Below, piece by piece: positions 7,496 through 13,326 of a stretch of DNA of 64,000 bases. A program made the translations under genes and the position numbers. Source of the stretch: Clostridiaceae bacterium (GTDB taxonomy: Bacteria > Bacillota > Clostridia > Tissierellales > Sporanaerobacteraceae); contig JAHXQP010000023.1 in assembly GCA_019391515.1 (NCBI GenBank), positions 62,001 through 126,000 of the forward strand, written 5' to 3'. The notes beneath the pieces are model-generated. The model searched no databases, had not been told where the DNA came from, and saw only the letters and a program-made list of their open reading frames with translations. How positions within the stretch are numbered: the stretch's first letter is position 1; each line of letters opens with the position of its first letter.

Positions 7496-9232
7496 TTAAG
7501 ATATTTTAAATTTTATTACCATGTTGTTTAAATCCTGTGCCATCTCAGCTTGAAGCTCTGCAGTACTTGCAATTTGTTCTACCCCTTCTGTCATTTCATT
7601 TATTCCTTCAGCTATCTGAACAGTATTTTCACTTGAATTTTGAGCATTTACAGATACATTTTCTATCGCTTGATTAAGTTCACTCATAGTAGCTGTTATT
7701 TCTTCAGTCATCGATGCAATATTATCAGACATATCATTTAGGAAATTTGCATCCTTTTCATAATTATCTAAAGTCGCAATAAAAGCATCATAATCTTTCA
7801 TTACTGTATCATCCATAAATACCAATACTTCCCTCGCATTATCTGATAAATTCTTAAAAGCTTGTTGAACTTCTACTATGGTGTTTTCAATAGTAGATAT
7901 AGTCCTAGATGACTCTTCAGCTAACTTTCTCACTTCTTCTGCGACAACTTCAAAACCTCTTCCATTTTCTCCTGCTCTAGCAGCTTCTATTGCAGCATTT
8001 AAAGCTAATAAATTTGTTTGTTCAGCAATACCTGCTATAGCTCCAGCCATAACCTTTATTTCTTCTACAACCTTACCATCCTCAATTGCCTTTAAAATAT
8101 TTTTTTGTTTTTCATGATATAAATTTATAGCCATATCTCTAGAAACAATACTTTCCTTTTTAGTCTTTATTGCTTTTTGTTTAATTTCATAAGCTTTATT
8201 ATTTCCTTCAACAGAACCAGAAGCAAGTTCTTGCATATTTGAATTCATATCTTCAATAGAAGCAGATATTTCTTCTGTTGAAGCACTTACTTCTTGAGTC
8301 TCTTCTGTTATTTTTCCTGTGGAACTATCTACATCTATAAACTTTGCATTTAGCTCCTCAATTGTAGCTGAAAGCTCTTGGCTAGAAGCACTTAAATCCT
8401 GTGATTCATCTATTATAACTTTAACAAGATTCTTTAAATTTCCTTGTACATTTTTTAGAGTTCTTGCTGTATCACCAAATTCATCTTTTCTGTCTACTTC
8501 AATTTCGTATGTAAGATCATAATTTGCTAATGAATTTGCAACATCTTGTGTTTTTTTAAGCAGCATCTTAATGGATTTAGCCATATACAAACCCATAGCA
8601 ATAGTAATTAATAAAGATATTGTTGAACTAATCATTGTTATCAACTTAGAACTAGCAAATAGATCACTATTTTGTTTTTTGATTTTTTCAGAACTATCTT
8701 TATTCATAGCAACTATTTGCTGTAAATCTTCAATAGCTATATCTCTTATCTTTACTGCTTTATTATATTCTTTTTCAGCTTCATCATATTTACCTTTTTG
8801 GCTTAATTTAATTATAGATTCGATTTTATCTTTATATTGAACATAACTTGTTTTAAACTCTTTAAATATTTCTTCTTCCCCTTTTAAATATTCAAACTCA
8901 CTATTTTCATAATTCGAAATCAATTTATCACTATCATGTACTAATTTTTCAACATTATCAATGTAATTTGGTAAATCCTTATTATTTTTCTTATAAACCA
9001 TAGATAATAAATCTCCACGGATTTCAAGCAAATTTTTATCCAACTTATCTAATCTTAATACTTCATCTGTATTATGATAACTTATGGCTTGATTATCATT
9101 TACTTTATTGAACTTATTTAAAGATATAAAATTCCCTATACCTCCTATAACTATAATACTTAAAAATGCTATTAAAATTTTCGCACTTACTTTTCTGCTT
9201 TTTAACAATTCTATCCACTTCCTTTTCAACAT
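7496..9232 (-). CDS. Methyl-accepting chemotaxis protein
   Basis: The 578-residue receptor has a membrane helix at about residues 17-35, an extracellular four-helix-bundle-like sensor of about 150 residues, a second helix near 197-217, a HAMP domain, and a long coiled-coil signalling domain. The conserved hairpin tip reads [20 protein letters not shown] with [18 protein letters not shown] after it. It should form membrane arrays with CheA and CheW and steer the flagella; the ligand is unknown. No other che genes are in the window. The ATG at 9232 has a poor Shine-Dalgarno; a TTG at 9208 is preceded by AAGGAAG at good spacing and may be the true start. Confidence 0.93.
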
Positions 9233-9440: not shown

Positions 9441-11707
9441 CTACAAAAAGGATCTTTTTATTATGCCAACAGCTACTCCAAGTATTCTTACCTGATCGTC
9501 TCTAAACTGTGTAGGCTCATATTTTTTATTTTCAGGTATTAATAAAATTGTATCTCCCATTTTCATAAATCTTTTCAATGTTGCACTATCATCTATTGCA
9601 ACAGCAGCAATATCTCTATTATTAGCAGTTTCCTGTTTGCGTATTACAACATAATCTCTATTATTTATTCCTGCTTCTATCATGCTATCGCCCTTTATCT
9701 TTAATATATAATGGTTGTCTCCATTTATACAGTTTCTAGGCAAAGGAAAATCATCAACTATCTCTTCATTCATATATATGGCTTCTCCTGCAGCAATATT
9801 GGTGTAAACTGGAACATTGGCAAGCTCTATCTCTTTATAGTTTTTCCTTTCATATGAATCCTCTATCATAATTTCACATTTATCATTTATGTCCATAGTA
9901 ATAATACTTTCCTTATTCGTCCTAAGATTGATATATTTGTAACTTTCAATGCTTGATGGAAGCATTGATGAATTAAATAATGGTATATCATTGATAACTT
10001 CAAAATTTTTGTTAATAATATATATTTCATTACCATCGACAGCAATTCCATACTCACAAGTTCTGCAGCAACTCATATAGCTTTTTAATTGTCTAATTCC
10101 ATCATTTAACCCAGTTCCAAAGGCCTTTGTCTCAACAAAAATATATGGTATTTTATTTCCATTTTTATATATTGATATACAGATATCTACAGAACCAATT
10201 TTTGAAAAATTATTAACTTTATATTCGACATCAATAAGTCTTTCTGGATATTTATATGTTTCCATAAGCTCATTTATAAACCACTGTCGTATCTTTTCCT
10301 CATTCGAATATATATCAATTATCTCATCTTTAAATTTATATTTATCAATACTTACTTTATAAAAATTTCTTATATTTGATAATACATCAATTTTCAAATA
10401 TCTATTATCAATATCATCTAAAAATTTCGAAGGACTTCCACTTGTTGTTATATACAAAAATTCATTTGCCCTTGTCATTCCAACATAAAGTAGTTTTCTA
10501 TCCATTGATTCCTGTAAACTCTCTTCATTAAGATCTTCATAGCTTAGATATGGTATTATATTACTATTTACTCCTATAATAAAAACTACTTTGAACTCTA
10601 GTCCCTTTATAGAATGCATCGTTAGAAGTCTTATACTGTCCTTTTCAAAATTTGATTTTTTACTGTCTACAATAATATTCTCAATTCCTGAAATATCTAA
10701 TTTTTCTTTAATATCTTTAATAATATTCATATTTCTTGCAATAATTGCAATATCTTTCTTTTTAAATCTACTGATAGTATTACTTTTAATTTCAGAAATT
10801 ATAAAACTTGCTTCATCAAATGAATTTTTAAAATATCTACAGACTGGATATTCCCCTTGACGATCTATAAGCAAAGGTTGTACAAAATTTTCATTTTCCA
10901 CTATATTTTTATCATTCTCAATAAGACTATAGGCAGCCTCTGCTATTTGTGTGGTAGTTCTATAATTTTTGCTAAGAGAGTTGCTCTTTCCAGTCATATC
11001 AAACTCTATGCTTTTGAAACTTCTACCTTTAATAAGCCATGAATGAGAATAAATACTTTGAGCCGTATCACAAATAAACATTATACTTGAATATTCCTTT
11101 TCTAAAAGAAGGGGTTTCAAAAACTCAAGTTGAACTCTAGTTAAATCCTGACTCTCATCAATAATAATATGGGTGTATTTCTTACTTACTTCTTTTTTAG
11201 CCTGATTATATGCAATAAGAGCCATATCTTTAAAATCTATATATCCTATGCTTCTAAGTCTTTCGTTATATATTTCCATAAGCCGAAATATAGCACTTCT
11301 TGTAGTAGAATTTTTCATAAGTTTTTGAGGTCCATTACTACCTTGTTTGTTCTTCCTATCCTATCAACGTTTTGATATTCTTCAAGCTCCATATAATTAC
11401 AAGATTTTATCCAATCTATTTCATCTAATAGAAAGTCTATGTACTTTTGATCAAGCAGCTTTACATCTTTATAAATCTTAGACAACTCACTCACACATGA
11501 CGCTAAAATTGAATATTTTTCTTTATTGTCACTGATAACATTAATATTAGAATTGTTTTCTCTTTTGTAGTCACAAAAATATTTATACATTATACTATCT
11601 ACAGTTTTTATATCTAGTTTATTTGTTTTATCCTTTCCAAACAAATCCACCTGCTTAACCTTGGAATCGTCTATCTTTTCATAAATATATTTTACATATT
11701 GTATCAA
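9441..11707 (-). pseudogene. Broken UvrD-helicase / HsdR_N / LexA-like fusion
   Basis: Two overlapping frames form one decayed gene. The 5' frame (11315-11707) holds the post-Walker helicase region (IKTVDSIMYKYF, SCNYMELEEYQNVDRIGR). The 3' frame (9441-11318, 625 residues) has motif II IIIDESQD at 51-58, motif V TMHSIKGLEF near 233 and motif VI LLYVGMTRA near 276. A PD-(D/E)xK-like, HsdR_N-type segment follows (VDIC at 378, FVETK ending at 398). A S24 LexA/UmuD domain has Ala510-Gly511 as a candidate cleavage bond, Ser545 in KGDSM and Lys582 in ATLKRF. A lost base near 11340 would restore NGPQKLMKNS across the junction. No GxGKT exists in the roughly 107 bases before the next gene, so motif I is missing and ATPase activity should be lost. 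The overlap ATGA could still allow separate translation of the 3' part. Confidence 0.8.
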
Positions 11708-12162: not shown

Positions 12163-13326
12163 TTATCTTAATAATTGTAATACTGTTTGAGGTGCTTGGT
12201 TTGCTTGAGCCAACATAGCAGTTGAAGCTTGTTGTAAGATGTTTTGTTTTGTAAATTCCATCATTTCTCTTGCCATATCTACGTCTCTAACTCTTGATTC
12301 TGCAGCTTGTAGGTTTTCAGCAGCATTGTCTAAGTTTTTGATTGTATGTTCTAGTCTGTTTTGAACAGCACCTAATTTTGATCTTTCTTTTGAAACAGTT
12401 TCTATTGCACTATTTATAGTTGTAATAGCTTTTGAAGCTGATTTTTGATCAGAGATATTTACCCCTGCTGATTTAGATGCATCTTCATCTACTTCAGCCG
12501 TTAAAGTTAAATCTGTACCCTTAGCTGTTAACGTATCAGTTCCCTCGAAATCTTCAGTAGTGGATACTGCTATGTTTGCTTCTCCAGCAACACTTTCTAA
12601 TGCAGTCTTAACATCAGCCTTAGTTGCAGTTATATCTGTATCCTTTGCTAATGTTACAGTAATTTCTTTAGTATCCTTATTATATAATGCTCCAGTTTTT
12701 GTGTCTTTATCTCCTGCTTCTTCAAATTTTATTTTTACTTTCTCACCATCTAAACTACGAACTTGTAATCCTTCAATATTTGTAGCATCAACATCTTCAG
12801 CCTTATATACTTCTCCATTTATTTTCAATGCATCTGCTCTCATGTCATTGATACTTACTTCTAAATCTTGTCCTTCATTTGCACCTATATGGAATTTCTT
12901 ATTAGCAAAAGTATTGTCTAGTAATTTTTGAGTATTAAATTCAGTGTTGTTTCCTATTCTATCTATTTCTTGTCTTAATTGGTTCATTTCATCTTGTAAT
13001 GCTGCTCTATCTACTTCAACGTTTGTATCGTTAGCTGATTGTACTGCTAATTCTCTCATTCTTTGAAGGATTGCATGAGTTTCATCTAATGCACCTTCTG
13101 CAGTTTGAATAAGTGAGATACCGTCTTGTGAGTTCTTTGAAGCCATGTTTAATCCTCTAATTTGGCCTCTCATTTTTTCTGATATTGATAGTCCTGCTGC
13201 GTCATCTCCTGCTCTGTTGATTCTAAATCCTGATGATAGTTTTTCTAAGGATTTAGCTGTTCCTGTGTTGTTAATACCTAATTGTCTGTTGGCATTCATC
13301 GCCATCATGTTATTATTAATTCTCAT
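12163..13326 (-). CDS. hag: Flagellin
   Basis: The 387-residue filament subunit has the conserved D0/D1 N-terminus (MRINNNMMAMNANRQLG, then SSGFRINRAGDDAAGLSISE) and C-terminus (RVRDVDMAREMMEFTKQNIL, ending QTVLQLLR). The central 180-290 region is variable, rich in Thr, Asp and Lys, and forms the surface-exposed domain. It is secreted through the flagellar type III apparatus and polymerises as the filament. Its own sigma-D promoter and a long leader with a CsrA-type site are visible upstream. Its neighbours csrA and fliW are the expected regulators. AAGGAGGA is the Shine-Dalgarno. Confidence 0.97.
   Translation of the reverse strand: MRINNNMMAMNANRQLGINNTGTAKSLEKLSSGFRINRAGDDAAGLSISEKMRGQIRGLNMASKNSQDGISLIQTAEGALDETHAILQRMRELAVQSANDTNVEVDRAALQDEMNQLRQEIDRIGNNTEFNTQKLLDNTFANKKFHIGANEGQDLEVSINDMRADALKINGEVYKAEDVDATNIEGLQVRSLDGEKVKIKFEEAGDKDTKTGALYNKDTKEITVTLAKDTDITATKADVKTALESVAGEANIAVSTTEDFEGTDTLTAKGTDLTLTAEVDEDASKSAGVNISDQKSASKAITTINSAIETVSKERSKLGAVQNRLEHTIKNLDNAAENLQAAESRVRDVDMAREMMEFTKQNILQQASTAMLAQANQAPQTVLQLLR

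Follow-up and report, generated by a model that had tools for sequence, protein, structure and literature searches.

A decayed helicase-nuclease-S24 gene in a Clostridiaceae genome and its intact relatives, which look like nucleases with a built-in DNA-damage switch

The window analyzed here is a stretch of 64,000 nucleotides from a Clostridiaceae bacterium (GenBank assembly GCA_019391515.1, contig JAHXQP010000023.1, positions 62,001 to 126,000). Positions 9441-11707 of its minus strand encode, in this order, a UvrD-type helicase, an HSDR_N_2 nuclease and an S24 domain of the LexA type, distributed over two reading frames as follows:

11315..11707, minus strand: 130-aa fragment in the other frame of the same pseudogene, corresponding to residues ~61-179 of relatives and without Walker A
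9441..11318, minus strand: 625-aa ORF with the helicase from about residue 179 of relatives, the nuclease and S24
11046..11309, minus strand: remnant of the UvrD-helicase N-terminal domain with its DESQD box (Pfam)
10440..10658, minus strand: top-scoring part of the UvrD_C helicase domain (Pfam)
9981..10304, minus strand: HSDR_N_2 nuclease domain (Pfam), with D378 at 10185-10187, E396 at 10131-10133 and K398 at 10125-10127
9468..9812, minus strand: Peptidase_S24 domain, LexA-type (Pfam), with Ala510-Gly511 at 9786-9791, Ser545 at 9684-9686 and Lys582 at 9573-9575

The four Pfam matches within the 625-aa ORF all exceed the curated cut-offs (UvrD_C 1.2e-30, Peptidase_S24 9.2e-30, HSDR_N_2 1.3e-22 and UvrD-helicase 4.6e-12). 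They confirm the order of three domains in one chain that had been proposed in an earlier, sequence-only reading of this DNA, and because 29 intact homologues have their domains arranged alike it is not a product of chance. The residues named in that reading (D378, E396, K398, A510-G511, S545 and K582) are likewise all present in the ORF. Relatives align to the 130-aa fragment at about residues 61-179 and to the 625-aa ORF from about residue 179 onward. The source genome holds no second copy of the gene, which is flanked by an ORF resembling a methyl-accepting chemotaxis protein (7496-9232) and by a flagellin (12163-13326), both named by eye. A flagellin also lies upstream of the fusion gene at locus L092, the two flagellins being 54% identical, and the flagellin side may be a common insertion spot for the window copy and L092.

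The window copy is a pseudogene with at least two lesions, comprising a frame break, an upstream in-frame stop and a missing Walker A region. The in-frame stop lies directly upstream of the 130-aa fragment. When the N-termini of six intact relatives were searched against the window with tblastn, their first ~57 residues, which include Walker A, had no clear counterpart anywhere in it, and the best match for the missing 5' part (E 0.006) started at residue 61. This bears out the earlier claim that the copy lacks Walker A, and since the 5' part has no clear counterpart in the window, the loss reflects a 5' truncation that is distinct from the frame break. The same reading had put the damage down to a base lost near 11340; the frame break is there in the assembled sequence, where it may be a read error, yet the damage is larger, taking in the truncation and the in-frame stop. 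A sequencing error as the sole cause can be rejected, because the 5' end bearing Walker A is absent in addition to the loss of frame.

Intact homologues, whose existence elsewhere had been anticipated, were found with the same domain order. Scans of reference genomes, further genomes and plasmids yielded 22 intact genes, and 68 genomes of the genus to which genome G300 belongs yielded seven more besides that of G300 itself, giving a total of 29. This total counts three near copies (L087-L089) of L086, 94-99.6% identical to it, two of which (L087 and L088) are not in the gene tree. Left out before counting were L076, which lies on the contig of L024, L028 and L072, which are cut by contig ends, and the frameshifted or deleted L029, L071, L073, L074, L095 and L106. 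The intact proteins are 803-861 aa long, as measured from the first possible start codon, with a median pairwise identity of 46% among the first 22. Among the hosts are Clostridium magnum, C. bovifaecis, Clostridium sp. ZS2-4 and a Marinisporobacter MAG. One host, Ilyobacter polytropus, is not a member of Bacillota; its copy (L075, WP_013389202) is annotated as 'S24 family peptidase'. The Walker A lysine, the DE box, the checked helicase arginines of motifs IV and VI, the D...ExK catalytic set of the nuclease and the Ser/Lys pair of S24 are kept in all 29, and the Ala-Gly cut site in 27. At the level of sequence it is thus established that this is a three-domain enzyme with all of its catalytic sets conserved, and the intact members are predicted to be helicase-nucleases of ~810 aa carrying a C-terminal self-cleaving domain of the LexA type.

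The gene is patchily distributed. At E <= 1e-60, 9 of the 391 genomes searched in the class and 21 of the 398 in the phylum give a match; the genome from which the window comes, incomplete copies and hits to the helicase alone are all included in these numbers. In the gene tree, a quick tree with a midpoint root, copies from different families are united (G051 with G606, SH-aLRT 100; G010 with G491, 99), a pattern suggestive of horizontal transfer. Carriage by phages or plasmids was considered and rejected, full-length copies being found in 0 of 50,697 phage records and 1 of 72,556 plasmid records; IMG/VR gave matches to the helicase part only (4 loci). More broken copies are seen in other genomes (L029, L071, L073, L074 and L095), suggesting that the gene is frequently lost. 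One of these, L071, was examined as a programmed split between nuclease and S24 and rejected as such, the break lying inside the nuclease. The window thus holds a dead copy of what appears to be an accessory gene that moves horizontally.

Six relatives stop before the S24 domain (L069, L070, L094, L147, L148 and L149). All of the checked helicase residues are kept in them, while the nuclease is altered in every case: in three the catalytic E and K have become K and N, and in the other three the nuclease core is missing. On the tree these forms represent two independent losses nested within full-length genes, both of which are required by well-supported branches. One of them, L070, has stops inside the match in its genome and may be decaying. 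These searches turned up no helicase-nuclease that has a live nuclease yet lacks S24, although such a protein would have scored equally high. Because the six S24-less relatives are nuclease-dead or nuclease-less and no live S24-less nuclease was encountered, the nuclease and S24 appear to be functionally tied. Their joint loss would suit a switch that turns the nuclease on as well as one that turns it off, and by itself gives no polarity. Two other members, L075 and L153, have Asp in place of the Gly of the cut site and keep their nuclease residues; a Gly-to-Asp change here corresponds to lexA3, the classic mutation that blocks cleavage.

A further set of 26 loci (L121-L146) encodes shorter proteins of 472-544 aa, in which the N-terminal half of the helicase is joined to S24. 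These S24-only proteins occur in 25 of the 68 genomes of the G300 genus and in G098 (L142), and on the tree a single branch with a support of 100 separates them from all the others. A GK[TS] Walker A and an Ala-Ala-Gly site are present in 26 of 26. Among the 24 in which the pattern located the DE box, 21 no longer have its Glu, indicating a degenerate helicase. In the structure alignment, which covered 24 of the 26 proteins, the S24 Ser and Lys are invariant, and both are present by pattern in the other two. Two of two such proteins tested pass the NCBIfam cut-off for the LexA repressor; no Pfam-type evidence of DNA binding was seen in the set. With the nuclease absent and S24 intact at all 26 loci, S24 would have some role independent of the nuclease. 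Many of the loci lie in common chromosomal settings, with the same gene type at 16, 12 or 11 of the 26. The idea that the full-length protein has the S24-only one for an obligate partner was also considered and rejected, the latter being present in 2 of 8 genomes with a full copy versus 23 of 60 others (Fisher p 0.70).

Structure models were made for both types. The full-length model (L024, from 19 rows) has a mean pLDDT of 76.5 and a pTM of 0.51, at which the packing of domains, S24 on nuclease included, is not reliable; Foldseek searches with it returned UvrD and PcrA first and then LexA (3k2z; 1jhe with TM 0.86 by target length). The S24-only model (pLDDT 79.8, pTM 0.61) matched N-terminal parts of UvrD/Rep as well as LexA, including LexA bound to the RecA filament (8gms, TM 0.87 by target length).

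The neighborhoods of the first 22 intact copies, four of which are nearly identical (L086-L089), were then compared. Within ~3.5 kb of seven of them lies a PLD-ResIII helicase, sometimes with DUF3427, of a type that PADLOC labels 'Type IV methyl-directed restriction enzyme' and that is presumably a SauUSI-like restriction helicase. Seven adjacencies stand against ~0.11 expected from 17 such genes in 23 genomes or records, an estimate made with rounded genome sizes and a profile built from six of these very neighbors. At L025 the neighboring helicase is broken into two ORFs. Other loci carry Zorya II ZorABE and a NERD-HRDC gene (L024), PsyrT/PsyrA and NERD-UvrD (L026), GmrSD (L091), an AIPR gene (L077) or a DUF4011/MTES_1575 gene that scores with PDC-S37 (L078). 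Altogether 11 of the 22 loci hold one or more defense-type genes, a count made from neighbors chosen by eye and without matched control loci, and these neighbors favor a role in defense. For the other 11, the Ilyobacter neighbors were read from the annotation, in which there is no defense gene, and one L087 neighbor was scanned and matched no PADLOC family; the surroundings of L075 and of the window copy are housekeeping or flagellar. Near the SauUSI-like helicase (L025, L077, L079, L080, L081 and L027), HIT-domain genes are found at 4 loci and Nudix genes at 2, and a gene resembling an NTP pyrophosphohydrolase, named by eye, is common to L027 and L080. Neither HsdM nor HsdS was noticed among the selection of neighbors scanned.

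Regulation by the SOS response at the promoter was considered and rejected, because GAAC-N4-GTT, the SOS box of Firmicutes, is missing upstream of the 22 intact copies; a single looser AAC-N4-GTTC is present in L080. With a slightly wider pattern of the box there were 0 matches among 10 more copies of the full-length or S24-less kinds and 1 among the 26 S24-only ones.

The reading we prefer is that of a defense helicase-nuclease that is turned off by RecA-stimulated self-cleavage of its S24 domain, and for this whole chain of steps we would put the probability at roughly 0.38. The helicase would travel along DNA and the HSDR_N domain would cut invading DNA. Upon damage to the host's DNA, RecA on single-stranded DNA would stimulate S24 to cut the Ala-Gly bond at the boundary between the nuclease and the S24 core. 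Cleavage would release that core, which, as in LexA, is probably the part that forms dimers, and would alter nuclease activity. In the preferred direction, a point that the earlier reading had left open for its DNA-damage or phage-defense switch, this would amount to a built-in restriction alleviation, by which damaged or repairing host DNA is spared. The Ala-Gly bond and the Ser-Lys pair are determinants of RecA-mediated self-cleavage, according to PMC8565304 and to general knowledge. The off direction is favored by analogy, since the helicase-nuclease HsdR provides a precedent in which restriction is alleviated through ClpXP proteolysis (PMC4231737 and PMC11109961). We also lean toward it because L075 and L153, whose cut sites carry Asp, keep their nuclease; these two cases would fit a switch to off better than a switch to on, with cleavage at another bond a possibility in them. 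Weighing against the preferred reading are the S24-only relatives, in which S24 is kept although the nuclease is gone, and the housekeeping or flagellar surroundings of L075 and the window copy. That S24 gates the enzyme at all, in whichever direction, is considerably more probable than the complete chain and is what we would expect. Intermediate between the two, and just short of even odds, is the broader proposition of a single-chain immune helicase-nuclease set directly by the SOS signal, whether for alleviation or the reverse, together with the S24-only form as a second SOS-responsive protein devoid of a LexA-type DNA-binding domain.

The main rival reverses the direction, and we regard it as unlikely, though less so than the remaining alternatives. 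Here S24 would restrain the nuclease until RecA-triggered cleavage, following damage caused by a phage, freed it to destroy the DNA of phage or cell in an abortive infection. The defense-type neighbors agree with this, and the finding that all six S24-less relatives are nuclease-dead or nuclease-less, with no S24-less relative having an intact nuclease, looks as if the S24-less form were harmful. UmuD, which is activated by cleavage, offers a precedent, but LexA and CI are inactivated by it, and L075 and L153 would be expected to be locked off and yet retain their nuclease residues. Less probable again is a factor of DNA repair or recombination, an SOS-tuned helicase-nuclease working on broken ends rather than in defense. 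Its kinship with UvrD/PcrA and LexA and the lack of a recognized defense gene near the Ilyobacter and window copies speak for such a role, whereas the patchy spread, the tree that joins copies of different families, the defense-type genes at half of the loci and the missing GAAC-N4-GTT box, with its one looser match, all speak against it. Least probable is that S24 serves for dimerization only and self-cleavage is incidental: S24 domains do dimerize LexA and CI, and in two members the cut site departs from the usual one, but dimerizing needs neither the Ala-Gly bond kept in 27 of 29 nor the Ser/Lys pair kept in 29 of 29, and the 26 S24-only relatives have all three.

LexA-type self-cleavage is familiar from repressors and a polymerase subunit. 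Judged from their sequences and surroundings, the intact copies, often near anti-phage genes, resemble a nuclease that carries its own DNA-damage switch. A nuclease with its own LexA-type domain would tie the sensing of DNA damage to immunity without any need for transcription, and might reveal how cells stop aggressive nucleases from hitting their own broken DNA. The family also sets an annotation trap, as proteins made of half a helicase and S24 clear the NCBI cut-off for LexA repressors and a full-length one is filed as no more than 'S24 family peptidase'.

Compared with known systems, the fusion shares with LexA, and also with UmuD and CI, the C-terminal S24 fold, the Ala-Gly bond and the Ser-Lys dyad; LexA is the closest PDB sequence to the S24 part (3k2z, 6e-31), and the window copy and L024 lie above the NCBIfam lexA cut-off (TIGR00498), with L075 below it. 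Unlike LexA, it matches no LexA-type winged-helix DNA-binding domain in Pfam, the N-terminal partner being a helicase-nuclease. The accessible part of PMC3834820 holds no list of the RecA-contact residues of LexA that could be used for testing. No description of a helicase-nuclease-S24 fusion was found in the literature searched, outside of which lie subscription papers and most preprints. As in the SF1 helicases UvrD, PcrA and Rep, the UvrD N and C domains keep their motifs, and the best folds are UvrD and PcrA; yet the family is far below the uvrD, pcrA and rep equivalog cut-offs (for L024, 117-126 bits for uvrD, pcrA and PRK11773 versus cut-offs of 911-1144) and carries a nuclease and S24 in addition. 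Type I HsdR similarly unites an HSDR_N-type nuclease and an ATP-driven DNA motor in one protein, but in the fusion the nuclease is C-terminal to an SF1 helicase and S24 is added. Of the 32 PADLOC families scoring with L024, the best 25 cover the helicase or, in the case of MTase_I, the nuclease; none of these 25 spans all three domains or reaches S24. The helicase region is similar to those of Gabija GajB and NERD-UvrD (L024 with PADLOC C3a187, 6.9e-39; GajB, 4.7e-37). GajB works with a separate nuclease, GajA, and to our knowledge neither GajB nor NERD-UvrD has an S24 domain. The helicase-nuclease-S24 fusion is a real family of bacterial proteins and seemingly one not described before.
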